Shown here: positions 15,624 through 62,201 of the stretch, piece after piece
How positions within the stretch are numbered: position 1 is the first letter of the stretch
How the letters are laid out: each line of letters starts with the position of its first letter
NCBI GenBank assembly: GCA_964036195.1
Contig: OZ038459.1
Span: forward strand, 10,413,206-10,477,205
Reading direction: 5' to 3'
From: Sphaerolaimus hirsutus
Taxonomy: Eukaryota > Nematoda > Chromadorea > Monhysterida > Sphaerolaimidae
DNA length: 64,000 nucleotides
Position numbers and translations under genes: made by a program
The notes under the pieces: model-generated
Told to the model about the DNA's origin: nothing
Database searches by the model: none
The model's input: the letters and a program-made list of their open reading frames with translations, nothing else

Positions 15624-15658
<35 letters not shown>

Positions 15659-19566: not shown

Positions 19567-20022
19567 GTGAGCGATTCTTTCTTTTTGTTGGTCGAGACTC
19601 GTTCACGGCTGAAAGTTGGAAATATCAGCGTTGAACGTTATTAAAAACGCGGGCCATTGAAAAAAACGCTTTTTCCATCCCTACATTTGAGTTAACCGAA
19701 ATTTTGTGTCAGTCAACTATGACATTTGACGTAGATCGAATATTATTCATTCTGTTCAACACAAATGCGTTTGTAACAAATTTCGGCGCCATATGAGCGC
19801 ATTGTGGATATGTTTTGAAGGAACGACAAAATTGGGCCAGGGAATTCAGTGTTTTTTTTCGGGCAGCTCCATTTTGACTTTCCAATTCTATTTATACTGC
19901 CTAATTCGAGACCACTTTGATGCATCGGTTTTTCTCACTTCCTAGTAAATGTTTTATGTTGTTTCGGTCGTACTGATTTCGCTGTGCATGATTTAAGAAA
20001 CTACACTACATATAGACCGGGT

Positions 20023-24811: not shown

Positions 24812-24835
24812 CGAATTAAGGTCAAAGTCAACAAG

Positions 24836-24985
24836 ATGGGCAAAACCACGCCCACCGGAAGCAACAGACCTGTTCTGCGAATTGGGAACTTTGTTAAATC
24901 AGACTGCGCTCTTTATAGAGATATGTTACAGCCATTTGAACAGTTTTTGAGCGAAGATAAAATGAAGTTTTTCAAATGGGTTACG
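24836..24985 (+). CDS. Possible exon of an unknown protein, divergent from the retroelement
   Basis: ATG at 24836 opens 60 codons. The first 50 (to about 24985, a GTTACG donor) have coding-like composition, with MGKTTPTGSNRPVLRIGNFV then FEQFLSEDKMKFFKW. No domain is recognised. Its start overlaps, on the other strand, the open frame upstream of the retroelement TTG. It could be host sequence into which the 5' end of the element joins. Downstream (25020-26085) I see no further exon. Confidence 0.25.
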
Positions 24986-25576: not shown

Positions 25577-26215
25577 TTATAATATATTTATATTAGTGTA
25601 TTGCATTGATCGCTGTACTTCTGTCGCGTTTTTTTTTGAGGGGGGGGAAACAGGTAGTGCAGAAATCAAAGCCTTACTTTGTGTTTGTGGATGAAATATG
25701 ACAGTCACTTTTTAGTCATTAAAACAACTGAATGATCATTTTACCAATGTCTGTTTTTCTGTCTCATTATAAATACTAGACTGGGATTTCACGTTTCCTT
25801 GTTGAGTTCTATTCGAAATGAATGTGTCTTGTTTCTTTGGTGAACATTACTGCGAATAAAATGGGTTATTTACAATTTCCACAATTCGAGATATTTCACT
25901 CGTAATTTTTGAGAAACAAACCAGCTCGATCCAAAATTGGAGGCAGTTAAGTGGCCTGTTCAGTGTAAGCCAAGAGACAAATGTCATGCAAACTTGTCAA
26001 ATTTCAATACAAAAGTGTCAAAAGTTTAGTTACTAATGTTTTTATTTTGATTGACACTGCATTGACATTTGACGATTGACGGAACACTACAGGTTGCGGG
26101 ACTGCAACCTAGTTCCAATCCCAGAACCCTGTAAAGTGTAGAGTAGAGTGTCAAGTCAATTGTCATGCAACGTGTCAATTGTGATGACAAATGTAAAGTA
26201 AAGTGTTAATTAGGG

Positions 26216-28988: not shown

Positions 28989-31900
28989 ATGTGGACAAGG
29001 GTCAATAAGCGCTTCTGCGCCCGAAGACCCGTCGGCAGTGTTCGCTGTTTGGCGCAGATCTTTTTAGATCCGAGCGGGAAAGCGTCTCGACAACGGACCG
29101 TATTGTCTTTTTACTATACTTTAGTCTACGGTTGTCAGTATTCGCAAAGTACCAATTGTTGCGCAGCACCGCCTACGTGACGCTCGGCCTCGACCCCACC
29201 GACGCGTCCCACGCGCATAGCTGAACTTTGGGGTAGCATTTATGTGAGGGGGTGTTCGCCCTCGAGCGCGTGCTTAGAGCTCTCGAACCGCTCGGCGAAA
29301 ATTGTTTATAGTTGGTTATATTTACCCTAATGTAGTTTCATGTCGGGGCTAACACGAAAATCGAGAGCATCCTACAATCACCCCGACAGGAGGTAGCTTT
29401 TATCTCAAGAAGGTAAAATTCCTACCCCAAAAAGGGACTGCCACTGGTGACACCCAGAAAATTTCGCTCCCATACCCACTACCGTATTTCCTCGAAATAC
29501 CCCCCGGGGGGTTATTGTTTCAGAGTGAGAATTTTGAGAGCAAAACGTGAAAAATGCAACAATAACCACCATTTATAAGTTTTTACAGCCTTTTTTAAGG
29601 ATGTAGATGGTATAAACGATGTTCTAACGTAACACGGTAAGTGTTTTGAACATGTTATGCGTTTCCCGGGCCACAAATTCATAGTGCCGATTTTGAGGGG
29701 GGGTATTTCGAGGAAATACGGTATATTTCCAGTCAGGGGGTCGTAGCCGATCGATTTTATTGTTTTAATCGATGCGATCGATTTTATTGTCAGCCCTGAC
29801 ATGCAACTACGCTGTAACAAAATATCAACCATTTTTACGAAACGGTTTGTGAGTGATAAGCACACGTTCGAGGGCTGACCCCCACCCCTAAAATGTGACC
29901 CCAAATTTCAGCCATGCTCGCAGGTCGCCGGAAGCTGTCAAATCTGCATACGCCGATTTGTGCAAGCGGCTGCACCCGGACACCGGTGGAGTGCACGCGG
30001 ATGTGCAGAAGTTGGACGATGTCAGGGCTGCTTATAGGATAATTTGCGGTGACAAGTGGGTGGATCACCGTGCTTGCGTCAATTGTGTCAATTACGCATC
30101 ACACTTTACAGAAACAATGAAAATTAAGTGTCACGATATCAAATTGACCATAGGGAAAGTTGAAATCACATGATAAACCAAAATTCAATTGACACAAATT
30201 TCGATGTCAACTAGTGTATGGGCCCAATGTGGTTTGCTCCACTTTCAGATCGGACAACGAGCGCACCGATTTGGAGGATTTCGCCGCGCGCTTTGACATT
30301 CGTCACACGGCGCCGCAGCACTGCAGGGTTGGCCTTCGAAATTTATCACCATGCAAAATCAAGTTATAGCCTCAAAAAAAGCCTTGTTTTGATAATTTGC
30401 ACAGTATTTGGAATACGGAGGACAAGGCAGCGGAACTCCATTCATGCGCCAAAAACAACAGCGCAGACGGAGGGCGGAGTCGGCACACCACTCTTCATCT
30501 GAATACATGTTTAGAAAGGTGTGTGTCTCTTCATCTGAATACATGTTTAGAAGGGTGTGTGTTTAATTTGTCACGATTTGATGGCAAAAGTAATTTATGT
30601 TTTCTGAGAAGTTTTCTAATTTCATGCGTGGTATAATTACGGGAAAAAAACGCTGTGTTTATGTTCAATCACTGAAGTAAATACTTGTACCATAGGGACA
30701 TGACACCGCATCGGAAAGTGTGCCTGTCTTTTAATAGCTTAACAGCTTTTGACGATTTGGTGCACATTTCACATCTTGAAAATGTGATCTTGTTCATAGC
30801 GGCCGTGCATAATTTTCGGTCCTCTGCCATTTTTCGTTGAGATTTCCCATTGATAGTCATTGGTTTCAGTTTTTCAACGCACTTGGCACATTCTGACTGT
30901 TTTTACATACCGTATGTCCCCTTGAATCAACCGCCCTCGAAATACCCGCAGGTCTGAGCGAGCTGGTGAAATAATAGATCCCTTGAAATAACCTCCACCC
31001 AATTTGCGTTTGAAGAGAATGCTTATGACAATAACTATATTTTCTGTTCTGTGTTTTGCAGAACACACCTTAAAGCAAAGTGTGATTTGAATTAGGACAT
31101 GGCTTATACCGTCTACCTAAATACTTAGATAAAATATGTCTATTAACGCTATACACTGGAATTAAGAACAATGGAATTCCGTAAAATTTCTGGCGACAAG
31201 ATAAACCCCCTAAAATAGCCCCCTCGAATAAACCCCCCTCGAATTACACCCCTCAATATTTTCTGGCGAAATAACAAAAACCTGTGGGTATTTCGTGGAA
31301 ATACGGTATAATGTAAAGTAAATACATGCGCGTTTTCAAAAATATTTACATTATGCAATTCTAGTTGTGAAGTCAAAAATATATACCTACATATAAATAT
31401 TTATGAATTCATTTTGCACTAACATTTTCCTTCCGAAGCAGCTGTATTTTTTGGTCAAAATCTTGAAATTTTGTTATCAAAATTTGTCTTTGTCCGTTGG
31501 TAAACGTCGATGTCCATAGTGCAGCCAAGCACAAAAGAGAAAGTTTAGTCATTGCAGTCGACATAATTTTTCTGCGAATTTCTCACTGTTTTGATATTTT
31601 TACGTGTTAAATGTTAACGATTTAGCAGCTTCAGCTAAGTATGAAGTTTGTTTTCACCTATGTTAATGCGTATTTTACGACTGTTTCTGAGTGGTTTTGA
31701 TGCTGTGCTCATCATGATGCGTAGAACCTGGTGCGTAGAATTACAAAATTTATTCAAATGTATTCAGCGACGAAACGAACTAGGTATTCAAACAATTCTA
31801 CAGTAACTTTTCACTCTCTGTTACTGATCGCGTACAATTTTACAATTTTGTAAATAAATACAATTTTTTACATGTCTGACGGTCGCACCGCCAAATTGTC

Positions 31901-42697: not shown

Positions 42698-45600
42698 TCA
42701 CGATTGCGGCACGGACATTGTCCTATTTTCCTGATTGTGTGTAAATAGCGTAATGTTTCTGTTGTCCGCGCTGGTCCTCAGCAGGTGTCGTAACTTTTTG
42801 TGGCTGAATCTGCTCAAATATTGCGGTTTTGCGTTCGTTGGGTCGTCGGATTCCGGTGACGCCATCGGCTGGTGCAGTCTGTTTCGTTGTTTCTATTGTG
42901 GTTGCGTTAATTATTGTACAAACGTGCGAGTGCGACTGTGCTCACCTGCGGTGCAGTTCAGAGTCGTAGTATTTTGATGATAATGAGAAGCTGAGACCTT
43001 CGTCGACTTGTTTGTCATCAGCCACACTCAAGGGCCGGCCGTACTGTCTGCGAGCATGGTTTCTGGGTATTTACTTACGTGGTATACTCGGTGGACTTGA
43101 CGCTCTGGACTCTTATTTATGTATGATATTGGAAGCGTGCCAATGATAATTGAAGCATGCGATATTTGTAAAACGATAAAAAATTCATTGTTGTGAATAC
43201 GTTCACATAAATATAATGTTGTAACAGTGACCAATTTTTCAACTTTTTTGAAAATCGCCTGCATTGTGAGTATATCGCTGGCACGCTTCCAGCGCGTATC
43301 ACGGGTGCAAAGCGTAAAGTCGCTGGAATATTATAATGCATGCACCCAAATTTGCCCATCCATGACTCACCTATAATTCGGGGTCGCCACCGCACTATTA
43401 GGTCCCATTTTGACCCTGACTTGTTCGCTCAAAAATCCCAGACGAATCTCGCCGATCACGTAGCTGGCGAATTTCGACGCCACTTGCTTCCTGCCGTAAG
43501 CGTTGCACTCGTTCAGCGTGGAAGTGCTGCCGCGCAGGTGTTTTTTGACCGACTGGATATTTGCCTGCGACTGCGTTTTCGCGCCGCCCAGCGCTTTTTG
43601 CGGTGGCGTGTTGAATGGTTCGCTGCGACGTTTGATAATCGCCGTGGCCGGCTTCAAAGTTGATGGTTTCGACAGCTGCGTAGCGGCGCTGTTGTGTACG
43701 GAGGCCTGGGGGCAGTCCCAGACCCTGTAAAATGTCAAATGTCATGCAAAGTGTCAAAAGTCATGTAAAATTCCCTGCAAAATGGCAACCGCGTTGCGAT
43801 TTGCAGGGCATTTTACATTACTTTTGACACTTTGCATGACATTTGACATTTTTACAGGGTCTGGAACTGGCACCTGGTTGTGAGCGGGCGGCGGTGTGTC
43901 GTCGCAGTCGAGCGAGTTGCTGCAGGACGCCGGCTGGCTCAGACGCGTCGTGATGTACCTGCGCGCGAAGACATCCATCGAAATTGATCACACCGAAATG
44001 TGATACGCAGCGACGTAGACCTATTGCCTATCTAAACCCGTTGCACATCTAGGCCTGCCGCATTGTCTAATTCTACCCATTGCCCATCTATTTATACCAT
44101 TGCACATTTTGAGGGGCCTGTAGGTGGACAATGGGTAGCGGGTTAGCGATCGATATGTAAGCGAGCGATCGATCACTAATCCCCTGCCCATTGCCCATCT
44201 AAGACCCCCCAAAGATGTGCAATGGGTGTGGGCAGCGGCTAGATGTGCAATGGGTTTAGATGTACAATGGGTTTAGATGTGCACCGGTACAGGTTTATGC
44301 GCAACCGCCTCACCTCTTGATGTAGTTCCAATGGGTGGTTTTCAGCACGACGCCCCTGCTGCTGTGCACCAGGCCGATGGTGCGCAGTTGGGCTCTGAGT
44401 GCCGCGGCCGACTGGTGGCTCGCCGTGCAGCTGCAGTTGGTCCACGCTTGCTGCACGGCCAGTTCCAGCCCCAAGTCGATGTGCGCCGCCACGCGCAGTA
44501 TCGCCTGGTCGCGGCTGGTGCCGCTTCCGCTGGGGCTTATGCTGCGTAGGGGGTATGCGTGTGTCGCTGTGGAAAAATTGATTGATGTGTGTGTGCATCT
44601 GGCTGTCGCGTCGGTTGTGCATGTTTTCCGACCGACAGAAATCTAGTGCAACAATTTCCCGTGCCGTGATGAGCGGTAATTGTGGAAGATTTGCACCTTT
44701 ACTTACACCACAGATTTCTTATGCCAGTTCTTGTTTTAGCTGTCAGCATTTCAATATTCAATCTCTATAATCTCCCAAATGCTCAAAATTCTCCACCGGC
44801 TAACCAGCAATCGACCGCGAGGGTTTCACTCTTGGCCGAGGGCGTTTGCGCGTTCACGTCCAGGTGCGCGCTGGGCCAGCCGCTGTAGTGCTCGCCCATG
44901 TTGGCGCTGTGCACCGCCTGCTGCCTGTGCAACCTGGCGCCCGCGCCGCCGCTCATTCTGCTGCTCACCGCGCTGTGCGAAGACAGACGGCGGCGGGTCG
45001 CCGGCTGCAGCTCGCTGTCTTGGCCGTAGCGCAGCTGCTTGCGATGGAAAATGCGATTTTATGATATTGCTTGATTTTTCTTTTGAAAATGGCCTGTCAA
45101 TTTTCCGTTTTCAGTTTCCGCTTTCAGCAGGCAAAATTTTTTTTCCGTTTTCCGCCAAGTGTAACAAATTTACGTTTCCGTTTTTCAGCAAGTGAAAAAA
45201 ATTTCCGTTTTCGCTTTACGCAGGCAAATTTTTTCCGTTTCCGTTTTCCGTTTCCGCTTTCCATAGGCAACAATTTTTCCGTTTCCGTTTTCCGGCAAGT
45301 GCAAAAAATTTTTCGTTTCCGTTTTCCGGCAAGTGCAAAAAATTTCCCGTTTCCGTTTTCCGTAAAAAAAATTTGCTCACACCTAGGCGAGAGTAACTGT
45401 ATTTAGTTGTCGCTGCTCACCACGATTTTCAACAAGCTCTCATCATTATCGACCAGGTGGGACACCATGTCGTATGCGAACGGGGTGCCCCTCTTCTCGG
45501 CCGTCTCGCCGCCGCACACGCTGTGGCTGTCGCTATTGGCCGCGCCGCCGCCGCCCCAGGCGTCGTCATTGGGGGACTTGCCCTTGGCCAAAAGCGCCGC

Positions 45601-48600
45601 GCGCCACATGTCCACCAGGATCTGCAACTCGAACGCGTCGAAGTGCTCCGTGTCGCGATGGTTCTGTATCGAGTTGCTGCTCATGCTGGCGTTGTTCTGA
45701 CTGGCGCAGGTGCCCAGGTTGGATTTGCTGGCTGTTTGCACTGTGCACGGGATCGCCTCGCTGCAGCACGAGTGCGTGTGGGTGTGCGCTGAAAAGTGAT
45801 GTGCGCCGTATTGCCCATTGGAATTGCAAACATTGCTTGCATAGGCTAAGCTATAAAATTTACTAGAATTTGAAAAGCTGCAAGTGCAGATCGACGTAAA
45901 ATTTCACGGTTTGTGATGCCGCATTATACGTCAAGCTGTAAAGCGGGAATTAGAGCTCAGCGTCGATTCGACGTGAAATGATGACGTGAAATGTCGTCGT
46001 GAAATTAATTACACGAGTGTGGATCATGCTACGGGTCTACAATTTTCTAAGGATAATATATGAATCAATACCTTAATCGTGTCCAATACTGAGTGTTATC
46101 AGCCACAACTAGAGCGAATTGAAAAATTCAATTTTTATCATTTCACGTCATCATCATTTCACGTCACAGTGTCAGGGAACAACTTGACATTTCACGTCAG
46201 ACTGCTGCTTGCAATTAATTTCACGACGTCATTTCACGTCATCATTTCACGTCGAATCGACGCTGAGCTCTAATTCCGGCCTAATAGACATAGGTAGCTA
46301 GATAGGTGCAGACAAGGACGTAGCCAAGGGGGGCGGCCGTCCCCCCCTTTCCCGGGTGATAGTAGTAACATGCCCGGAATAGTGATTTTGGGATCGAGTT
46401 TTAGGGTGATTTTCAAAAATTTAGCGCGCAAGCGCGCATTTTTTCTTAACACGACAATTTTTTTAACTCACCGGTCGCGACAACTTTACCTAAATGTGTT
46501 CACGTCAGCGTCTGAAGCGGTATACCGTATTACCTCGAATTATCCCCCTTGAATTACACCCCTCGAATTAACTCCCCCCCCTCAAAATGGGCTGGGGAAA
46601 TAATAAACCCCCCTTCGAAATACCCCCCTTGAATGATGTACATCGTGTATGCAATGCACATGATGTATTTTTTCCTGTTAATTTGCATTCCAGCTACACA
46701 TAGTTTGTGTATGCTATCTACGTTTTTATGTCCAAATATATACTGTTTGGACACATTTATTACCTATTTTGGGTACGCAAATGCATACTATTTACTACGA
46801 TCCTTACGAAAATTTCTGACGAAATAATAAACCGCCCCCCCCTTGAATTAACCCCCCCCCCATCTCAAATTCTGCTGGCAAAATAATAAACCACCATGGG
46901 GGTATTTCGAGGCAATACTGTATGTTTGTAAAATACCTACATACATATGGAGCGGTCTGTGGCGCCAATGCCAACGCCAATGGCGCCATGGCGTGGCGCC
47001 TACGAATGGCGCATTTCCCCTACTACATGGGTCAATTTTTTTTTTTTGGGGGGGGGGGCGCCCCCCCCGTTCGCCGGGCTCTGTATGCAATCCGCCCCCC
47101 GCTCAAAAATTCTGGATACGTCCCTGGGTGCAGAACGTGCGGCAACCAGCTTAGTAAATACAGCCGCCTTCGAACTGACCATCAGGGTTGCGACAGCAGC
47201 ACTGAGCGACCGTGGCGCACACTTTGGCCCCGCCCATACGCACCCAGACGCCGTCGAAGCGGACGCTGTGCCACGGGAAGAAGAGTATCCAGTTGGTGGC
47301 CGAGTGCAGCACCAGTAGCACGTTGGATATGTCCGTCAGGTACAGGGCGATCATGAAGCTCGACCGGGGGGCAGTCCCGGACTCTGTAAAGTCCCCTGTA
47401 AAATGTCAAATGGCATGCAATGTGTCAAAAGTCATGTGAAATGCCCTGCAAAATGGCAACCGAGTTGCCATTTTGCAGGGCATCTTACATGACTTTTGAC
47501 ACTTTGGATGACATTTGACATTTTACAGGGCATTTTACATGGTCTGGGACTGGCACCAGCGCGACCACATGCTATAATCCAAAGAGTCCAGGATGGCCGA
47601 GATCAGGAACACCGCGTGGCACGCCAGCAGTTTCACGTTCAGCATCTGCGTGGTCTTGCTTAGGTTAATGGTTTTATACCACATGCACATAAACTGCAAA
47701 CCTGCAAATATGACCCACAATTAGAAAAATGTCAATAACTTTTTCAGAGCACTTACATCATTGATTACCTATTTACAATGCACTGTAATTGCTTGAAATA
47801 CCTCCAGGGGTTTACAATTGTATCAGTTCGCCCAAACCTGGGGGTATTTTGTGGAAGTGTGAGTAAAGTTGAGTGTCCAAAAATTTTGAAAAAGTGTAAA
47901 TTTGGCTAAAAATGTTTATATGTGATTTATTAGTGAATTCATGTAACAAAAAAAACAATTATTGGTGTACACTTCCGAGCTTATAATTCTTTAAACAATT
48001 CAGCACTACTTCAACGTTGGTTTTGGGCGATTCGGTGGTGAACATGGCGTTGGCGTTTGCGTGTACGTACAAGGGGCGTTTACGTCTACACGGTGGTGCT
48101 ATGTTTGGCAGAGTTTTTCCAATGCCCTACTTTTGTGTGTGTGTGTCAAGTCGGCCAAGGCGGGATAAAATGGAGGTATTGAGGATCTGTCAAAGTTAAC
48201 TGTGATGTAGTACAGATAGGTATTTTTCGTATTTTTTTGAACTTTTTGACACTTTACCAAGTTGAGAACTAGAGAACTATTTATCTAAGAGATATGGTGG
48301 TGTTTTATGCACAAATGATGCGGCAATATCTAATTTAATTGGCTAAAGAGATAGGAAATGAGTGCAGTCCAGATTGTATGAAAGTATTTATATTTTAATT
48401 AGCTAGAAAAAAAGTGTTATCGGTGTCACATGAAGTAATGCGTAAATGGTCAGTGGCGGTTGAGGACACATAAATTTAAACTCGCTGCGAAAATTTAAGT
48501 GAAAAAGTTTGATGGCACCATGACTGTGAATCTAGTGTGGATTGTACATTGCCGAGATTGGGCGAGTTGATTCCAATGCGATTTTACAGAGTACACTGAA

Positions 48601-51600
48601 ATATAGTTGGTGCGGTGATGCTTGGTGTTGAGATGAGAGGCAATTAAAATAATTGAGTTGAACTCAACAAACATGACCCCATGTTTAAATGCCTACTCCC
48701 TTGGTTTGCTAAGAGCAGCCCAGTCCGCCGATCTCACCGAAACATGCACCCCTACAGTGACAAGTGTACTCATTTTTATTTAGAGAAAAGTTTTGTGCGG
48801 GGCTTTGTACAATGCACATGGGACTGATGGTAATGGTTGCCTTAGCTGGTAGCAGATGAGTGGTGTGGCAACAGAGTGGTTTAAAAATTGTCTTTGATTG
48901 TCAATGGCTGTTGCGTTTTGGCATGTGGCGATGGTTTCACTTAGAATTTTAATGTAGTTTATAAAAAAGTGCAATTTGGACATGCATTCATTTTTCCTCA
49001 ATAATTTTTGAAGTTGACAAGTTGCCAATCATTTGTGTTTTGAGTTATACTGATCCCATATCCATGTTATTTGTTTAAATCTACAATTTTATGCATTCAA
49101 ATTTTTTTATTAAGTTAAGTAGAATATAGGAAAAACTCTAACATTGTATTTTTTCTCATTTTATTTTATTTTTCTCAGCATCATCATTATTTTCTTAATT
49201 TTGTTACCTTATCCCGGTTCTAAAATGTGTATTTCCTTTTTCCTCAAACTGATAAGTTGGCTGGCATTTAGATATGTAGAAATATTTATGCAAATTTTGT
49301 ATCCGATTTTATGTGAACAAAGAGTTGAAATAATAATGCCGCTCATTTCTAGATTGTAGTGAGTTTTGATAGTGGAAAAGGTGATTCTGGTCGTTTTTGT
49401 AGTTGATCAGTTAAACGGAATTTCCGCTAGCTTTCTTTATAAGTACCGTAGTATTCCAAGTTTCCTTGACAGTCAGTGTTGATAGAATTTTGTTCGCTTT
49501 ACCGGTATCCTAATTTTATCATGTATTACGCTTATGACATTTTATCATTGTGCATAAACAATATGTGTGCTTCTTATACTTTGGATATCAATGTTGTGTT
49601 CGTTTATTACATGCTTTTTCTGCTGATGGGCTTATTGTTCGCTGGTTTATTCGCAACCATTATCGCCGTGTTTCCCTGTGCGTGGTGGTGGTTTTGGTAT
49701 CTCAGTTGAATTCACCGAATAATTTTTGAATTACGCGCCAGTTTTTTGGTGTTTTTCGCGCAAAAGTCAGTTTCTATAGTGTTTTTCCGTTTCTCTCTCA
49801 TTCCATGTGAGTCTTTTGTGTGTTTGATCGACATATCTGTGACACCGTGAGTAATTTTTGGTATGCCTGAATTGAAATTCCGCTTGGCTATTAAGTCATT
49901 TGTGGGTCGGCAAGCGGAGTCTGGACTTGTATTATGTTGATGCGTATGAAAGCTTACCGTTATTTGGAGTGAGAGAATTCAGTTTTCAGAAGTTTTATTT
50001 TTTCAAAGTCTGTTCCGAGGGTTTTAACTCGCTCTTGAAGTTGTTTCCTATGCTGTACTTTCCTGAAGTGTGATTCCGAGTCTAAAAATCGCCTAAATAA
50101 AATCCTTTCTAAAAAAACTTCAGACCCCTTGGTGTAAATTAGACATTCAACTAACCTATTGCGTTGATAAAAAACGCCATTCGCTAATGGGCTAAATAAT
50201 ATGACATTACGTACACCTGTGAACTCATCTCAGTGGGTTCACCATTGTGTGGTTGCGATTCAATCAGTAGTCGATCTTCCGTTGCCTTACTTTGAAACTC
50301 AATCAAAAGCGTAGTCAGAACGTGAAAAGTAGGAGATCGGTAAAACTTGGCACAGTGCCAGATTGAAATTGGTTGAGTAAAAAGTAGTTGAGTGAAAATT
50401 CATGACAGAAGGTCTATCCGAGGAAACACAGTAGTTGCCTTAGGAAGGGGTGGGACCGTATTTGCTATAGGTATATGCTTGTACGATACTTGCTTGCAAA
50501 ATTCTGCTCGGGAATTATTTTTTCGTCAGACTTTTTTGAAGGGGAATAAGTCAAGGGGAGGATTTATTCAAACAACAACAGAAACTTATGCATCTCTGTT
50601 ATTGTTCAATTTTTCTGTAAGAGTATGTTACAAGCAATTGATTGATACCTAGGTAATATAATTTCGCAAAAGTTCTAGCGAAATAATAAACCTCACTCGA
50701 ATCAGCCCCGTTGAATCCTTCAAACTTTGCTGTCAACACAATACACCCTCTGGGCGTATTTCCAGGAAATATGGCACATAATATTCATGATACGATGTTT
50801 TGTGGCTCGAGTTATGATGATATACAGCCAGAAATAGGGAATTTTAGTGTTGGCGCTATTTTGGCGCTTGGCGCCATTTTTCCTGGCGCTTTTCCATCAC
50901 TAATAGCAACGTCATGGTTGAACGCACCGTCAACATAAAGGTCACATAGCCCCTCCTCCTGGAAGTGCCGCCGTACTTGCGTACATTGGTCTGGTGAAGG
51001 GCCTTGGCGCTGTCGCCGGGCTCGTCCCTGTCGGCGGTGCTCATCTGCGACATGTCCACCGTCTGGTGCGCGGGGGTGCTGCTCAAGGCGGCCGTGCGCC
51101 GCAGGCGGATCATCATGATGGCGGTCATGATGAACACCAGGATGAATGGCACCGGGCACCGGAAGATCAAGTCCGGTAGCAGGTGGAACGCTGCGGTGGG
51201 CGATGTTGGGTGGAAATGTTGCGTCGTTCAACTGGGGTTAGCTAAACGCAATGTTAATGAGACACAACGCTGGTTCAATTGTAATCGCATTTCTGCATGG
51301 TTGTAAAACTGGTTTTAAATCTAATTACTTTGCTAGGTTCAGTCTTTTCACCAACCCAATGTGACTCTCACTCGAAAGAAAGCTCACCCACCAATCATGT
51401 ATGCCCTATAATCTGTCAGCTTCGTCTTGACAATTTGCACACTCAACACAGTGTTGCTCTGATGCGAGTGTCGCATTCGATCGGCCAATTCGATGGCGGG
51501 CACCCGGCACTCTGCGAGCTCGTGCTCGGCCACGTAGGTGGGCACGTTGAGCAGCGCCGCCAGCATCAGGATGACCACGCTGGCCGTGTTGACCGAATAC

Positions 51601-54600
51601 GGCCGCCGGTGCGACATGCGGCGGGTGATCGCTACGGGGTAATGATGGGTTGAGTGAGGGGTCCACACAATCAGTACACTACTGGATAAGGTATCGTAAA
51701 GCTGCATTGCAGATTGGATCACCGGTGAAACGTGAATTCAAACTTCACCATAAAATTTATATTTTCATGTTTTTTATTGAACATTAATGTTCAAAATTAA
51801 ACTTTTCACGATAATTTATAACACCTCATATGATTTTAATGTTTTTTTTCACATTCTTTATTCAAAATTCGCGTTCAAAACTTCTAAATTATAAAATTGA
51901 TTCTCAAAATTTTTCGTCGGATTATTTTCCATCATACATCTTTCATTTCAAATTGGAAAATAACATCTCTTGTGAAAAAACTTTTTGAGAAAAATTGAGT
52001 TTTGAAAATGAATTTTGAAAAAAAACTTTAAAAACATGGAAATTTTCCCTGACCTTTTGGTTTATGTTTCACCTTTAATTTTTTGTCAAGCCGTGAACGC
52101 AGCTCAATGGGTGATTCTAGATGTTAGCCGCGACACTGAACCAGGGTTGGCAAAATCTCAGAAAAAAATAAAAATAAAATAAAAATAAAATGGAATATTC
52201 AAGAATAAAATAAAATAAAATAAAATGGAAAATTTAAGAATAAAAATAAAAATTGTATAAAAATTCAAATTTTTGTAAAATTGTATAAAAATTTGTATTT
52301 TTGTAAAATTGTATAAAAATTCATATTTTTTTGTAAAATTTTGTCTCATTGCTTGAGTCTCTACCTGTTTATTCAGGGATCTGGGGGCAGTCCCAAGCAT
52401 TGTAAAGTGTCAAATGTCATGTAAAATGTCATGAAAAGTGTCAATTGTCATGACAAATGTAAAGTAAAGTGTAAATTGACATGACATGTAAAAATTAAAG
52501 TATCAATTGTCAAGCAAATTGTGTTCAAATCTTATGTTTTAATTTGAAATCTTATGTTTTGTATCCAAATTATGTTGTTGTTGACTCCAAATCTTATGTG
52601 AACATTTGGATACAAAAACATAAGATTTGGATATAAAACATACTATGGATACAAAAACACAAGATTTGGATACACAATTTACACTTTGCATGACATTTGT
52701 CATGACAATTGCCACTTTGTATGAAATTTTACATGACACTTGCATTTTGCATGACAATTGATACTTTAATTTACATTTGTCATGACAATTGCCACTTTGC
52801 TTGAAATTTTACATGACACTTGACATTTTGCATGACAATTGATACTTTAATTTACATTTGTCATGACAATTGACACTTTGCATGACATTTTACATTTTAC
52901 AGGGCTTTTTATGTTATCTGGGATTGGCAGCTGTTGATTGTGTGATTGCGTTTGTTCCATGTATGTGATTGCTGGCTGAGCATTTGATGGCACTTTAGCA
53001 GATATAAATTTGAGATGTCAAATGTCATGCAATGTTAAAAGTCTCATAAAGTGTCGTGTACTTGCCATTTTGGCGGGCATTTCCCATGACTTTTCACACT
53101 TTACATGACATTTGACATTTTACTGGGATTTTTGCCACAGATAGGGAATAAGCCACATGAACCAGGATTTTGAAGGTAAAAATGGGCGTATAGGTATGAA
53201 AATTTTCATATTTTCAAATTTTCATGTGTCCAGCACACTCCAGCTGCTAGCTGCCAGCTAGCTAACAATACATACTGCATGCAACTTTTGAAAAGTAAGG
53301 GAAAAATTTGTCACAGGTTTTTCATGTATAGGTATAATAATAACATTTTTCTGGTATTGCATGCATGTTTCTGATTTTTTGTAAAATTTTTGTACAATTT
53401 TTGTAAAATTTTTGTAAAATGTGTCATTTTATTTTATTAATGACTTTTGGGAATAAAATAAAATAAAATAAAATGAAAGAAGAATAAAATTAAAATAAAA
53501 TAAAATTTTTATACAATTTTTGAACAATTTTACTAAAATGAATTTTTATAAAACCAACCCTGCACTGAACCAATTGAAACAATGCCGGCTGTAAACCCTT
53601 CCCAGCGCACCAACCCGCAAACGAATTCCAATTCGACAGCGTATCGCTTCCCAGACTCTGCGCAGCGTGTTGGCTTCTCGCGGCGGCGACGGGCGCGGGT
53701 GCGCTGCGTCTGCGCTCAGCCAGGGGGTCGACCACGGCTCGGAGGCGGTCGACGGTGATGGCGACCACCTGCCACAGGGTGCCCACCACGCACGCGAACG
53801 ATATGGGCCGCGAGATGTAGAGGAGGTAGGCGGACAGGCCGTAGAACTGCAGGCCGCCGTACCTGCGTCGTCCGTTGGCGTTACGCAGCTGAACTTGTGT
53901 ATTTTGCTTTTCTTAACGGTGGCAAAACGTCGGAACGAGTAGGTATATATTTTTTTACTCGATTTAAAAAAAAGTTTATCAAAATTTGAAAAAAAAATTT
54001 TGTCCACTTTCCGCCACAATTTACAATGAACCGTACAACATACCGTATTACCTCGAATTAACCCCCCCCCTTGAATTAACCCCCGTCGAAATACCATCTA
54101 ATATTTCGCTGAGGAAATAGTAAACCCCCTTCGAGATACCCCCCCCCCCCGTTTACTGTAAAGAGAATGTACAAGACAAATTCCGCAGTTGGTGATTTGT
54201 ATTTATGATGCAGAACACACATTGAAACCAATGACTGAGTGACGTTAGGGCTGGGCGTATATACAGTTAGGGTGGCAGAACTTACCGTACCGTACCGCAT
54301 TTTTGGAAAATTTACTGTACCGTACCGTTTAACGCACTTTTAGGAATTCACCGTACCACGTACCGCATTTTGTGAAATTTACCGTACTGTATCGCGTACC
54401 ACACTTTTCAGATTTACCGTACCGTACCGTTTACCGCAATATTGAAGATTTACCATACCGTACCGTTTACCGCAGAACAGAAAATTTACCGTACCGTACG
54501 GTTTACCGCAAGGCTGTACCGTCTGCCACCCTATATCCAGTCATATATTTATGTCTATGTAATTGTTTGATTTTTCTATGTCTCAGTACGTGGAATTTCA

Positions 54601-56939
54601 CAAAATTTCTGGCGAAATAATAGATCCCCCTCGAATTGACCCCCCTTGAAAATTTGCTGGAGAAATAATAACCCCCCTGGGGGTATTTCAAGGCAGAGTT
54701 GAGAAAATGTATTTACACTCACCCGAAATACCTGGGTAAATGGGTATTTATATTTACACTTACACTTACAGGTTCATAAAATACCCATACACTTTTTTCA
54801 CACTTTCCTGGGCAAAATACCCGGGTACAGAAAGTGTATTTTTTTTTTGATGGCCCTGTTTTATGCTTTTGAGAAAGCATAAAATAGGGTCATGTACAAA
54901 AAATACCCGCACAGTGTGCACATGCAGTTATGCATTGAATGTAGAAAATATGGCAAATGTACAAACTAGCCTTTGATCTCCAACCTTTGATCAGTACTCA
55001 TGGTACTCATCATCATACTTTTGTAAAAAGGTCAAGATCAATGGAAATTCACCAGCTGGACACAAAGTCAACTGGCTTTTGCATTGACATTTGCTGCATG
55101 TCCATTCTTGCATTTAAACAGTGTGTATCGCATTGCTTAATCAGTCAAATATTGACACAAAAAGTGCCATTATTAGGGAACTTCATACCACTACAGTATT
55201 TTTTACAGTCTGAAATGTTTCATAAAAGGCAGTAAAATGTGAAATAATGCATGAAAATGATAAATAAATTGATCTAAAGGTGAAAATGTTGTGTTTTCTA
55301 ATGCTCAACAGTGACAGCTCTTTCTGAACAAATTTTTTACACTTACCGTACTTCTCCGTGTAAAGCACCCGGGTGTTATACAAAATTGAGGCACTTTTCA
55401 GCAACCTTTTTATAAAACTTGTATAACACCCGGGTGTTATGTCAATGAGGATGTTTACATGGAAACGTGACTAGAACAAGCAATACCGCAAAATGTCAAG
55501 TGTAAAAATGCTGTTTTCTTTGAACGTCTTTACATATTTAGGTACATATTTTGCAACTGAGCATAGCACCCCGGGTGTTGTGCACGGAAGGTCCTTTACA
55601 CGGAAAAATACGGTACACTTTATTTTACACTTTCCTAGGTATTTTTAAAATATCTTACACTTTTGGTATGCATACTCAAAATTTGGAAAGTGTATGCTTA
55701 CACTTACACTTTCCAAAAATATCAGTATTTTAACAACTCTGTTTCGAGGTAATACGGTTTCATCCAAAAGATTCAGAAAACGTGCGTAGTAAAAGACACA
55801 GAGACTTTATGGACAAAAAAGAAGGTTCAAATCATATTTTAAAATTTTGCCGTCTCCATTTAAACCGCCATAGTTATAATGACAGAAGGACACATTTCGC
55901 CCACCAGATGCTAGTGAGTCCGTGCGACAGGAAATAAGCGATAAGCAAGGTGCTGTCCCAAAAGCACAGGTAGCGTAGATGTCGTAACAACCGGCCCTGG
56001 AACGGACTGCGCCATCGTAGATGTCTGCGCATTTCATCGGGTAGTCACTTACTTACTTGACAAAGACAGCAAATTAAGTGCTCATGAAGTGCACTGCAGT
56101 TATCTGAAGTGCCCCTGTGAATGATCACACTTCAGAGCCCGATCACCGGTGGCATGCACTTCACACACGCTTCATGAAATCTATTACTAAATTGTTTATG
56201 ATACGTCTGACAATTCAGTGAAGTGTGTTGAAGTGTCTGCGTAAAGTCACTTGACCGCAAATTACAGCAGATCACCAGCACTGTTTTTGCTGTGAAATGC
56301 ATTTCGAAAACGGCATGAAGTACATATTTATTTGGCCCTAGTTGTCTACCGAATTATCGAAACACTTGGAAAAAATTTAAAATAAGTTTTGAACGCGTTT
56401 GGTAAACATCCAAAGCTGATTTATTTACAGGTTTTCTAAATTTTTCAAAATTTCGGTGGAAGACTAGTATGCGAAGGCGCAATATGCAATAAATACAAAA
56501 CAAACAAACAATTTATTTAGGTGCTGCGCACACCACTACACCACCGAAATTTGGGGCACCCATAAATGTTTTGAGTTTTTAATATTTGAGTTTACCAGAA
56601 TAAGGGGTCTGTCAACTATCAAAAATCATTCATTCTGTGGTAAACTCAGACGTATTCAACACAGATTTATTACTTCCACAAATTTCGACGCTATAAATAA
56701 ATACTATTAGTGTGCATCGCCACATTCAGTACATGAACGGTAGCAGCCCACCTGAATAGCATATAATAGCCGCCCAATCCGAGAACCACCACAATTGGAC
56801 AGACGATAGCGTTAAGCACATAGGCTATCACAATGTACACTTCAAATTCTGCCTGCCTCCCCAAGCCCGTTGCCACCATTCTGAGTGATAATAGTGATAC
56901 GCACGGAACTGGACCAGTCGTACCATTTTGTTTTTCCAT
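42698..56939 (-). CDS. FMRFamide-receptor-like GPCR with long C-terminal tail
   Basis: Class A receptor at the cell surface, probably for an amidated neuropeptide. Exons, 5' to 3': 56939-56752, 56006-55905, 53862-53720, 51631-51392, 51190 to 50946 or 50928, 47693-47557, 47358 to about 47180, 45760-45421, 45037-44797, 44566-44314, 43958-43874, 43705-43371 and 42878-42698 (TGA). Phases agree at each defined join; the 3' end of exon 7 is open, so linkage of the tail exons is likely but not proven. TM1 is near residues 34-62 after an NGT glycosylation site. TM2 contains LCFWDSTLLI. TM3 ends AITVDRLRAVVDPL (DRL replaces DRY). TM4 is VVILMLAALLNVPTYVAE, TM5 PFILVFIMTAIMMIRLRR, TM6 QMLNVKLLACHAVFLIS. 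TM7 is LTDISNVLLVLHSATNWILF, like ISNLL..NSSVNF of FMRFamide receptors, then a CCC palmitoylation-type cluster. Two introns are transposon-derived, and the exon 3 donor reads CT. Confidence 0.85.
43706..43873 (-). mobile_element. Introner-like element: a whole GPCR intron made of one MITE
   Basis: On the minus strand the intron begins GTGCCAGTTCCAGACCCTG right after exon ...CACAACCAG and ends CAGGGTCTGGGACTGCCCCCAG before GCCTCC. The element is palindromic (GTAAAAATGTCAAATGTCAT and complement; central TTTGCAGGG..AACGCGTTGC-like hinge). Removing exactly 168 nt keeps phase 0 on both sides. CCAG at both exon edges may be the target duplication. Confidence 0.85.
44004..44293. mobile_element. Element with CCCATTGCACATCTA arrays in a GPCR intron
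   Basis: Repeated CCCATTGCCCATCTA on the left and TAGATGTGCAATGGG on the right form inverted arms around GCGATCGATATGTAAGCGAGCGATCGATCACT. It resembles the arms of 40922-42477 in design but not in motif. It occupies most of the intron 43959-44313. Confidence 0.6.
45070..45375. repeat. TTTCCGTTTTCCG low-complexity repeat filling a GPCR intron
   Basis: About twenty diverged units of TTTCCGTTTTCCG with GCAAGTGCAAAAAA spacers fill intron 45038-45420. It resembles the interiors of the TAGGGTT elements, but the terminal repeats are not clear here. Confidence 0.6.
45942..46285. mobile_element. Palindromic MITE with GAATTAGAGCTCAGCG ends
   Basis: Left GCGGGAATTAGAGCTCAGCG and right complement CGCTGAGCTCTAATTCCGGC. 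ATTTCACGTC repeats fill both arms. Same family as 18428-19327. Confidence 0.75.
46313..47126. mobile_element. hAT-like MITE, exact 8-bp duplication, interrupted by a B repeat
   Basis: Duplication GGTGCAGA at 46305-46312 and 47127-47134. Ends CAAGGACGTAGCC and GGATACGTCCCTG. The TACCGTATT subfamily B element 46523-46922 is nested inside. It ends close to the 3' end of GPCR exon 7. Confidence 0.85.
46523..46922. mobile_element. TACCGTATT repeat, subfamily B (nested)
   Basis: Left TACCGTATTACCTCGAATTA and right GAGGCAATACTGTA (two terminal mismatches). The core has ATGATGTACATCGTGTATGC and ATGTCCAAATATATACTGTT, shared with 17946 and 61785. Confidence 0.75.
47359..47556 (-). mobile_element. Introner-like element: GPCR intron between TM6 and TM7
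   Basis: On the minus strand the intron starts GTGCCAGTCCCAGACC immediately after exon ...GCGCTG and ends GGGACTGCCCCCCGGTCGAG before CTTCATG. All but about ten bases are the palindromic element (ACATTTTACATGAC.. arms, CAACCGAGTTGCC-like centre). The join is phase 2 to 1 and restores the TM6-TM7 loop. Confidence 0.85.
47709..50927. other. Large GPCR intron, mostly unassigned
   Basis: AT-rich sequence without recognisable exons on either strand. A hydrophobic + strand ORF at 49476-49709 lacks any family match. A degenerate TACCGTATT-family copy lies at about 50455-50773 (GACCGTATTTGCTATAGGTA to TTTCCAGGAAATATGG). Confidence 0.4.
52142..53562. mobile_element. CAGGGTTGG hAT-like MITE with AAATAAAAT interior
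   Basis: Exact duplication CACTGAAC at 52134-52141 and 53563-53570. Inverted termini CAGGGTTGG. Both arms carry AAATAAAATAAAAT and TTTGTAAAATTGTATAAAA repeats. A GGTGCCAGTCCC-family copy (52383-52930) is nested inside. It ends 158 bp from GPCR exon 3. Confidence 0.85.
52383..52930. mobile_element. Long GGTGCCAGTCCC-family copy
   Basis: Left GGGGGCAGTCCCAAGCATTG and right ATCTGGGATTGGCAG. It is longer than the intron-forming copies because of duplicated GTCATGACAAATGTAAAGTA arms and an internal AACATAAGATTTGGATA palindrome shared with 409-553. Confidence 0.65.
54268..54533. mobile_element. TAGGGTGGCAGA MITE with ACCGTACCGT interior
   Basis: Termini TAGGGTGGCAGA and TCTGCCACCCTA. Duplication TATACAGT/TATCCAGT (7 of 8) at 54260-54267 and 54534-54541. 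The interior is wholly TTTACCGTACCGTACCG repeats. Confidence 0.8.
54694..55741. mobile_element. CAGAGTTG hAT-like element with TTTACACTTACAC interior
   Basis: Inverted CAGAGTTG ends. Duplication TTTCAAGG/TTTCGAGG (7 of 8) at 54686-54693 and 55742-55749. Arms have CACTTACACTTTCC repeats. The centre has CACCCGGGTGTTATAC palindromes and no transposase. Confidence 0.8.
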
Positions 56940-57998: not shown

Positions 57999-58913
57999 CA
58001 GAGTTGTGCAAATACTGGTATTTTTGGAAAACGTAAATGTAAACGTAAATACCTTTTCCAAATCAAAAGTATAAATACTAAAACGTAAGGTATTTTTAAA
58101 ATACCAAGGAATACGTAAAAAAAACGTAAACGTAAATTTTTTACACACAGTAGGTATTTGCCATTGTGCTTTGGAAAATATCATTATTTTCACATTTAGA
58201 TGGGTCAATCGCTCCATCCGCACCACTTTATGTTGTAAGTGCGGCCAAATCCAACTACGTTGGTGATTCTGGGTGAGTCCCAGACCCTGTAAAATGCCTT
58301 GTAAAATGTCAAATGGCATGCAAAGTGTCTAACTCAAAATGCCCTGGAAGGTGGCAAAACTTTGCCATTTTGCTGGGCATTTTACATGAGTTATGACATT
58401 TGCATGAAATTTTACATTTTACAGGGCATCCTACAGAGTCTGGGATTTGCACCAGAGCTTGCACTCACCCTGCCAGTTTCAAAACGTGTGCTACTCACAG
58501 TTGTTGCAAGTGGCGTCGTTGGAATTCGTCACAAAAATTTATAAACACAAGGCTCCACAAACAAAAAGGCTTCTGTGTTCAGCATTTGAACACATTCATG
58601 AATATGTACCCAGTATTCCATGTGTGGAAGCGTGCAGTCACTTTTTTCATACATCGCTTTTTTGTATGTATACATGTTAAGTTTATGCAAAAACATTAGA
58701 ATATTGTTGGCTGCGGATGGTGCGGCCCATTTGACCATTTGCATGTGTGAACGATCATAAGTTTTTTACGTTTTCCCTAGTACCCGGGTATTTTGGTCAG
58801 GAAAACGTAACAAAACGTAATGGTATTTTTGGAAAACGTAAATGTAAACATAAGTATAAATACCCGAATAACCAGGTATTTCGGGTAAACGTAAATACGT
58901 TTTTCCAACTCTG
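57999..58913. mobile_element. CAGAGTTG hAT-like element with AACGTAAACG interior
   Basis: Inverted CAGAGTTG ends and exact duplication GTTTATAC at 57991-57998 and 58914-58921. Same termini as 54694-55741. The arms are ACGTAAATGTAAACGTAAAT repeats. A GGTGCCAGTCCC-family copy (58272-58453) is nested inside. Confidence 0.9.
58272..58453. mobile_element. GGTGCCAGTCCC-family copy, intron-sized
   Basis: Left GTGAGTCCCAGACCCTGTAA and right CAGAGTCTGGGATTTGCACC, 182 bp, almost the size of the two GPCR introner-like copies. Here it sits inside a transposon and no flanking exons are seen. Confidence 0.8.
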
Positions 58914-59151
58914 GTTTATACCATCTACGTACTAATATTAGTCTACAGGAGTTTTTACATGTCAGTTATTGATGCATTTTTTTACCCCAGCGCACATCAC
59001 AAACAACGATTTTGTACAAGGATTTCAAAAAAGTTCATGCGAAATAATAACCCCCCCTCGAAATACCCCCTCGTTTAACCCCCCCCCTCCCTCCTCTCGG
59101 GAGCACTATGAAACAATCACCCCCCGCGGGGTATTTCGAGGAAATACGGTA

Positions 59152-60393
59152 TCCATATGTGCGTGGTGTACGCAGAGTGTACAGTGTCCTATATTTAACA
59201 CAATCCACATAGCTTTTTCCTATTCGATTTGATTGTAATTTGCAATAGACCTGGCGACTGAATAATGCAAAATTTTAGTGCAGTGCACTCACCAAGCAAA
59301 GGATTGAATGCCTCTAATTACATAAATACATACCTAAGAGTTAACGATGTGCACCCGTGTTAGAATCCGACCCAACCGATATCCGAACCCGATACCTCAC
59401 AACAATACCCGAAACCCGCACTCAACGCCCAAATATTTCACACAGAATCTTCAGTTAAGAAGTGAGCAGTTGAGAATTCATAGCCTGACTGCTCCAACAG
59501 CCGCACTCGATTGGCGCCCCTGTGAAGGCCACTGGAATACTGCCCTCAACCCTTAACAAAGATGTTTCAAGCACCATTGAAGGATCTTTTTGTCAGGTCT
59601 AGAATTTAAACATATTCCAGTTTCCTACTGGTATTTCTGGGACTGAGATCAAAACTGGTTGTCCAAAATATTCTGAGATAAAAACTGTGGGCCAAACTGG
59701 AGCTGCAAAAAATATGGCTCACTATTCTACTACCTATTATAATATTCGATGGCTCACTATGTTCTAATATAGTATACATTGGCGACAACACCAGCGCCAA
59801 TCACACCATGGCGCGGCACCTACGAATGCACATTCTGCTATTATAGGGGCCAAATTTCAGTGCGGGGGCACCACCCTTATTCGCCACGAAATTTCTGAAA
59901 CTGCTACCCGATGAAACTCAAGCCTCAAATTCCCAACCCTAATGTGCACTCACCTGTTCCTCATTAGCGCTACACAGATATGTTGGTGCATGGATCAAGA
60001 CTAGCTGCATGATACTTTACCTAATTTATTAATTATCCGTAAACACGCTGTAATTTGATGATAACATATACCATGTGGTTATTTAAACTTAGCTGCGTTT
60101 TTAATCTGACTCATTCTCAGACATCACAATTTATCCTAATTGCTCTTATTATTATAAGCACCCGTGCGTGTAATACGTTTAGCGTACTCAAAATCTATGG
60201 GATATTTATAGTTCAAAAATATAAGATTTAATTACCTAGATTTTCAGAATATTCATTTAAAATAAAACTTTCGTTATTTATCGGCAACATTTCTCGTTGG
60301 AATTGCTCACAAATGGCGAAATTTTAATTTGTTTTTTTATGTGAAGACCACTGGAGCTTTTTGGATAATGGTATGCAGCCATGAAAAGAAAAA
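59152..60393. other. Unassigned DNA
   Basis: No recognisable gene. CCGAACCCGATACC-like repeats occur near 59370-59430, and CAGCGCCAATCACACCATGG near 59790 recalls the CAGGGACGTA family. Confidence 0.4.
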
Positions 60394-60627: not shown

Positions 60628-61784
60628 TGTGAGTTTCTAGTAGCTCACATAGATATCTAGTTATGGAGTTTGTGGCATGATATTTTTTGAAACAAATGTG
60701 AAGTTTCATTATAATCGGCGGACCGCAAAGTATGTGCCCAAAATTATTTATGTCTTGGTCGATAATGCGCGAACTGAATACTTATGTATCCACTTTCACA
60801 GGAGAAAAATATTTTAAAAAGAAAAAGGCAGAGTCGCGTACAAACGAGGAATGTTTTTCCCGTCATGTTTTTCTTTTTTTTGCATGAATTATGTTTATTT
60901 TATTAACGATGACGTCATGATGGAGTGTTTCCTTCAGGAAAATGCATAGCGTGCGGTCCGTCGAGTATACATCCAAAATGAAATTTCACTGCGAATTAAA
61001 TAACAAGATTTTGCTTCGAATCTACTCTGTATACCTGTAGTGCAGCTAGTGTTTTCAGTCAAACTTTGATTGTGACAATTGAATTTGAGTAAAAAAATTT
61101 TGCAGCTAGACTAGAGAAATTTGTGAAGATGGAGTTGGAGTAAAATTTGTCACATTTGATTGTTTTGAATTGTTTGAAAAATTTTTTTATGAAACCCTCA
61201 AAGCTACGCTCAAGTGCGAAGTGTGCGCTCCACTTGGTAAAAACCATAAGATTTTTCTTGTCGTCACTAACGATGTCAATAAAAATTCGAAAATTCAAAA
61301 ATGTTTTCAAATTTTCGATTTTTTTCTAGTATTTATGGTTGAAATCGCATATAAAATGCAAAAACGCAATTATTTTGACATGGATTCATAGCGGCGGCAG
61401 AACATGAATGTGCCAATGTGTCTGCGGTAACAGTTTGAAAAGCACAAAAGGTAAGATGCATTCAAAATTCAGCAGAAAAGTTCAATTCAAAAATGCTATA
61501 ATTTGGAGCAATTTTTTTCAAAGGTAATCAAAAAGACTTGAAAATTCGAAACGTAGCAATAAGATTCGAATCAAAATTCAAAATTCGAAAGTCTATTTCG
61601 AAAAAAACACTTATAAATTTAAACACTTTTTCCAAAGGATTGCCATCGTTAGTCGTCAGAGGTAGTCGGTGCCATTTCTTCTAGATAGCCTCATTAACGA
61701 AGCTGCATAGAACGCATAGAACGAATGGAACCGACAACCTGTGACGACAAGAAAAAATGTTATCTTATCGTGTATGTTACGTCA

Positions 61785-62201
61785 TACCGTATTACCTCGA
61801 AATACACCCATGGGGTTTTATTATTTCGCCAGCAAAATTTGAGGGGGGTTAATTCGAGGGGGGGGTTTATTCGAGGGGGTTTATTCGAGGGTTTTTTTAT
61901 TATTTCGTGAAATTCATAGTAGAGAATACGTTTTTCACACACAAAAATGGTAATAAACGCGAGAAAATAGGTAGTATTGGGGCTATAGATGTACATCTGT
62001 ACACAAATGAGCGTATAAGTGTATCTTCAATGCAAATTAGTAGTAATAAGTACATCATGTACATCGCATACATGATGTACATCATTCCTGAGGGGGGGTA
62101 TTTCGAGGGGGGGTTATTATTTCCCCAGCCCATTTTGAGGGGGGGTTAATTCGAGGGGGGGTTTATTCAAGGGGGGGGGGATAATTCGAGGTAATACGGT
62201 A
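61785..62201. mobile_element. TACCGTATT repeat, subfamily B
   Basis: Left TACCGTATTACCTCGAAATA and right GATAATTCGAGGTAATACGG, with core ATGATGTACATCATTCC. It is the most complete B copy in the window. Confidence 0.8.

Follow-up and report, generated by a model that had tools for sequence, protein, structure and literature searches.

The stretch of DNA analysed here (hereafter the window) is 64 kb long, and all of the element and intron results described below refer to this window only, in whose coordinates every position is given. A SAM synthetase gene (4120-19641), with ten exons running from ATG to TAA, lies on its plus strand; the protein of this gene is closest to that of Plectus sambesii (74% identity and the best E-value among the 120 matches listed). 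In a tree of 34 rows, comprising this protein and 33 chosen matches and containing no tardigrade, nematomorph or priapulid sequences, a split supported at 100/100 groups it with the nematodes, on a long branch whose placement within the nematode side is without resolution, and the assignment is accordingly taken no further than a nematode or close ecdysozoan. Elsewhere, an unbroken frame of 944 codons on the minus strand (22067-24898) shows a GIY-YIG domain at its N terminus (E 2.1e-5 in Pfam) and, by eye, an apparent reverse transcriptase with a YIDD motif, a combination that we take to resemble a Penelope-like element, and a short frame on the plus strand (29907-30080) has coding-like codon use and a likeness to the DnaJ domain, again by eye.

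The two genes of main concern lie on the minus strand. One is a receptor gene, of which the upstream exons (50928-56879) are TM1 (56752-56879), TM2 (55905-56024), TM3 (from 53862, its end being uncertain), TM4 (51392-51631) and TM5 (50928-51190), followed by the TM6 exon (47557-47693), which has an open frame and ends in phase 2, and by TM7, the last exon (47151-47358), which ends with TAA. The hookworm protein P0001 is the sole match at E <= 0.001 that a search of 3672 candidates gave for it. The Pfam 7tm_1 profile matches a 330-aa model of the receptor partially and under its curated cut-off (E 4.6e-4), and no 7tm match was reported by Pfam on the 203-aa and 412-aa models. TM1 and TM2 join in one open frame, as do TM4 to TM7 under the condition described below. 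At about 53720, the donor expected for the TM3 exon reads CTGG/CTGAGC, one base off GTGAGC (slashes mark splice borders here and below). A pseudogene broken at this donor was considered, but coding signal runs in frame past this point and the exon may simply be longer; an error and a lesion are the other two readings of the end of TM3 near 53720.

Between the TM6 and TM7 exons lies candidate intron 1 (47359-47556, minus strand, 198 nt), which is made up of an element body (47367-47556, hereafter copy 1) and 8 flanking nucleotides (47359-47366). The body is a 190-nt palindrome running from GTGCCAGTCCC (47556-47546) to GGGACTGCCCCC, and the candidate intron is bordered by CTG/GTGCCA at the donor and CGGTCGAG/C at the acceptor. 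An earlier note on this DNA had placed the start of the intron at the terminal repeat GTGCCAGTCCC, as is indeed the case, and its end about ten bases past the opposite terminus, a distance that we correct to 8 nt (GTCGAG/C, 47359); the same note had the element itself supplying the donor GT, and this GT does lie inside the element body. If left unspliced, the receptor frame meets a stop 7 codons past the last intact upstream codon, while removal of the intron restores the frame, as had been claimed: the TM6-TM7 join is open (the TM6 exon ending CGC TG and the TM7 exon starting C TTC ATG), TM4, TM5, TM6 and TM7 form one open frame to the stop once copy 1 is removed, and the alignment with P0001 spans the junction (FMIALYLTDISNVLLVLHSATNWILFF against YMNSFYLTDASNMLLVLHSATNWLLFY). 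Taken singly, the TM6 exon aligns to P0001 with a score of 44, equalled in 9 of 2000 shuffles, and the TM7 exon, in which LTDISNVLLVLHSATNWILFF matches LTDASNMLLVLHSATNWLLFY of P0001, with a score of 109, equalled in none of 2000, as is also true of the two exons together. The coding score of the TM6 exon is 0.57 bits/codon, but this exon is part of the training set. In a scan for splice pairs spaced at least 40 nt apart, which began 30 nt ahead of the element and stopped at the first conserved codon of TM7, five GT-AG pairs gave an open in-frame join, all with one common acceptor, and the best-scoring of these is the very pair that the earlier note had proposed.

The second gene, gene D, has exons A (45421-45819, its start uncertain), B (44830-45034) and C (44314-44566), which together span 44314-45819, followed by D1 (43874-43958, with the acceptor GCGCGCAG/G) and D2 (43371-43705, ending TAG/GTGAGT). 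Between the last two lies candidate intron 2 (43706-43873, minus strand, 168 nt, phase 0), a copy of the same element that is flush with the splice sites at both ends, the borders being CAG/GTGCCAGT and TGCCCCCAG/GCC; read through, exon D1 ends CACAACCAG, the element runs from GTGCCAGTTCC to GGGACTGCCCCCAG, and exon D2 starts GCCTCC. This copy 2 is the second-best copy of the family and was absent from the list given in the earlier note. With the element removed, an open frame of 425 codons passes through A, B, C, D1 and D2 with GT-AG borders; unspliced at copy 2, the gene reaches a stop 39 codons on. No usable homologue of gene D was found in Pfam, PDB sequences or a large protein set, so that its coding nature is judged from the frame, the splice sites and codon use. 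Codon scores were trained on the SAM synthetase and receptor exons, with non-coding maxima taken from 3000 draws of segments of like length. By this measure exon D1 scores 0.68 bits/codon, where its best other frame gives 0.62 and the non-coding maximum is 0.60. For the D2 stretch 43374-43715 the predicted frame gives 0.35 bits/codon and the non-coding maximum is 0.01, although over its first 120 nt another frame does better (0.29 vs 0.13 in the predicted frame). The minus strand is the best in all five gene D exons, narrowly so in C (62.2 vs 59.6) and D1 (29.8 vs 28.7). The flush pair, with a score of 7.46, comes third among the 16 splice pairs that keep the frame, slightly behind the flush donor combined with an acceptor 30 nt inside D2 (9.05) and a pair wholly within the element (7.65).

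In both copies the donor GT lies within the element, while the acceptor AG is formed by the end of the element in copy 2 and by flanking sequence in copy 1. By a small scoring matrix, the donors of the two copies reach the 90th and 96th percentiles among all GTs in the window, and the GTGC that they share is not foreign to the genome, since native donors in the window include CAG/GTGCTT, CAA/GTGCGT and ACG/GTGCGT. The acceptors are weaker: among all the AGs of the window, GCCCCCAG/G of copy 2 stands at the 50th percentile and CGGTCGAG/C of copy 1 at the 7th, on a matrix built from only 10 native acceptors, all of them CAG; the TM4 exon of the receptor, which is outside the matrix, would take a TAG acceptor. 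The element terminus on this side reads CCCCCAG in copy 2, as does the end at 52394, and CCCCCCGG in copy 1. At 168 and 198 nt, the candidate introns are shorter than the nine introns of the SAM synthetase gene (388-4148 nt) and than the three other introns of gene D (263-386 nt).

The element is short, with bodies of 166-190 nt in the two intron copies, has terminal inverted repeats and is without coding capacity (the codon score gives no coding signal in copy 1), and is in these respects a MITE. The inverted repeat arms of copy 1 (47360-47460 and 47464-47564) are 101 nt long, 85% complementary and 3 nt apart, and extend a few bases outside the element body. Copies 1 and 2 share 154 of 166 aligned bases (93%), with 24 gap columns, and in a comparison of four copies each is most similar to the other. 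Their 40-nt flanks, by comparison, agree at only 10/40 and 14/40 positions and are unrelated, and the similarity therefore stops at the intron ends, except for the 8 nt in copy 1. The two candidate introns are thus similar from end to end and lie in different genes, as introners do, there being two such copies only. Copy 2 is shorter than copy 1 by 11 nt in one arm and by 12 nt at the mirrored site of the other, as if both arms had been altered together.

A BLAST search of the window with the family consensus gave 69 pieces, which merge to 13 stretches and roughly ten loci, while each of 20 Markov sequences used as a control gave 0 matches. Two of the roughly ten loci are the candidate introns and seven to nine further ones lie outside known coding sequence, from which it follows that the family is mobile. 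A third full-length copy (58272-58452, minus strand; 84.0% identical to copy 1 and 84-86% to the two intron copies) was considered as a third intron and rejected as an ordinary insertion, the coding scores of its flanks being negative and non-coding. The SAM synthetase gene holds family-related repeats in intron 1 (4265-4535, plus strand, from the consensus BLAST), a copy in intron 5 that starts 52 nt past the donor (11842-12056, minus strand; BLAST pieces 11861-11916 and 11989-12038, ends by eye) and a diverged copy in intron 9 (17679-17834, plus strand; 73.2% identical to copy 1 and 73-75% to the intron copies). Long and fragmentary copies occupy the TM3-TM4 intron of the receptor gene (52383-53132, minus strand), and fragmentary copies are found at 25978-26193, both by consensus BLAST. 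Of the seven loci that had been put forward earlier as ordinary insertions, those at 11842, 17690, 26088, 52383 and 58272 are supported as members of the family (BLAST gives only a weak match at 17690, with E 0.003, but its global alignment score is 126 against 44 +/- 8 when shuffled), 21108 is marginal (E 0.009) and 409 gives no BLAST match, while the copies at 4265-4535 and 53015-53132 are members which that list had missed. Around 409-600 there is a palindromic element that has only the end motif GGGCAGTCCC in common with the family and whose inverted repeat extends outward (CCACTTGTGGA, by eye). By eye, SAM synthetase intron 8 contains GC-rich inverted repeat units (CACCGGGCA and GCACAGCGGGTAAAAAT, 17300-17500) of a different palindromic element, and a C-run/G-run repeat (TCGAATTA...CCCCCC and GGGGGTATTTCGAGG; for example at 46540-46900, 54080-54150, 59040-59230 and 61760-61870) is apparently another abundant family. 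A search for relatives of the element by exact pattern found none in viral or prokaryote contigs, the source genome being perhaps outside both collections, and a comparison with Rfam yielded nothing that reached gathering scores.

Each candidate intron folds with its short flanks into one long hairpin with the intron ends near its base: 47340-47575 at -139.7 kcal/mol and 43690-43890 at -118.1 kcal/mol, each with a z of about -16 and none of 200 shuffles as good. A conserved RNA hairpin acting as a working part was nevertheless rejected, as the changes between copies break pairs despite the strong fold: in a comparison of three copies, compensatory change is seen at just 1 of 80 pairs and the covariation term is unfavourable (+8.71), so that the fold looks like that of a decaying palindrome and not of a constrained RNA. 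No target-site duplication stands out in five copies at lengths of 2-10 and over a range of offsets. The best 3-nt end match, CWG, has a count of 11, hardly above the mean of 10.2 obtained by pairing ends taken from different copies, and is read as part of the termini or chance. An 8-nt near-repeat around copy 1 (GGTCGCGC and GGTCGAGC, 7/8 by eye) was dismissed as a duplication, having no counterpart at the other copies.

The anatomy of the two loci suggests that a splice-competent, introner-like MITE probably formed both predicted introns by insertion. The element would be a non-autonomous, almost fully palindromic DNA transposon of the MITE or foldback type, of about 165-190 bp, with a potential splice site at each end, C(A/T)G/GTGCCAGTCCC on the donor side and GGGACTGCCCCCAG/ on the acceptor side. 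After an insertion in the sense orientation within coding sequence, splicing at GT-AG borders, presumably by the normal spliceosome, would take the element out of the pre-mRNA and allow the gene to survive, with the intron itself created by the insertion. Non-element sequence within the candidate introns amounts to 0+0 nt in copy 2 and 0+8 nt in copy 1, between flanks that are coding-like and match in frame and phase. Copy 1 may have lost its own AG, since it has CCCCCCGG where CCCCCAG would be expected, and may now use the following AG in frame, within what would formerly have been exon; should that AG be unused, this receptor copy is broken and copy 2 is the sole intron. The earlier proposal of a mobile family able to become introns is upheld in its anatomy and made more likely by the second intron copy at 43706-43873, with splicing still a prediction and the acceptor of copy 1 a poor one. 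It is possible, though we hold it only tentatively, that the terminal repeats, similar as they are, have become specialised for opposite splicing roles, one as a GT donor end and the other as a C-rich CAG acceptor end, making sense insertions cheap for the host and seeding many introns across a nematode or close ecdysozoan genome.

Three other explanations were weighed against formation of the introns by insertion. In the simplest, the MITE has plainly disrupted coding exons and is never spliced, making the receptor, and perhaps gene D, a pseudogene, as could be read from the stops met in the unspliced frames after 7 and 39 codons, the weak acceptor of copy 1 and the TM3-TM4 junction without a clear donor. 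Yet the downstream exons, D2 included, remain open and keep coding-like codon use, both copies are sense-oriented with frame-compatible GT-AG pairs, and copy 2 places a CAG/G acceptor at the exact end of the element, all of which leads us to regard disruption as unlikely.

A considerably smaller probability attaches to the element having entered pre-existing introns that then shrank until just the element was left. Larger introns do hold further copies, as at 17679 and 11842, but copy 2 leaves nothing besides the element and copy 1 only 8 nt, shrinkage to the termini would be needed twice, and origin within an older intron is made unlikely by the absence of the intron remnants it should have left. 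Least credible, and very unlikely, is a structure-guided excision like that of the euglenid nonconventional introns, with the hairpin joining the ends and canonical splice sites being needless; it would suit the long stable hairpins of both introns, whose ends lie near the base, and is opposed by the GT-AG borders present at each and by the single compensatory pair in 80 across three copies, with its covariation term of +8.71.

Formation by insertion, if true, bears on the origin of animal introns, which is an open question, introners being known from very few animal groups: intron gain driven by transposons would then reach the nematode side of the animal tree as well, and two candidate introns 93% alike over aligned bases in nearby genes would be young enough for testing recent intron gain. 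Among systems of this type, Huff et al. reportedly described in 2016, for Micromonas and Aureococcus, DNA transposon insertions that create introns with one splice site in the element and the other provided by an 8-bp target duplication, whereas no such duplication is demonstrated in five copies of the worm element. Henriet et al. are said to have derived introns of the larvacean Fritillaria in 2019 from MITE-like elements, likewise in an animal, but with borders that are, going by the title of that work, often non-canonical, unlike the GT-AG found here. The nonconventional introns of euglenids (PMC4770533) have inverted repeats near their ends and a stable structure pairing the ends, and a MITE-like origin has been proposed for them; they are alike in all three respects and differ in their variable non-canonical borders, where both worm candidate introns are bordered by GT-AG. 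For nematodes, a 2022 study of intron gains (PMC9169325) discusses the failure to find the source sequences of new introns, and no nematode introner family was found in the literature searched, most subscription papers and all preprints being outside its scope. Introners as a kind are defined in the survey of 3,325 genomes by Gozashti et al. 2022 (PMC9860276), which reports them in just two animal groups, names copepods, is without the string 'nematod' in its main text, and includes an Acanthoeca family with inverted repeats and without duplication (Fig. 2D) and an Aureococcus family that adds whole codons to the transcript (Fig. 2F). Set beside the introners described there, the worm element differs in its nematode-side host, in being a hairpin over nearly its whole length and in having two candidate intron copies so far, and it shares with them the character of a non-autonomous DNA element with terminal inverted repeats, the similarity of introns across genes and, as predicted, the drawing of splice sites from either the element or the flanking sequence; the candidate introns would in this sense be a new family of introners, a known kind of intron, and not a new phenomenon.
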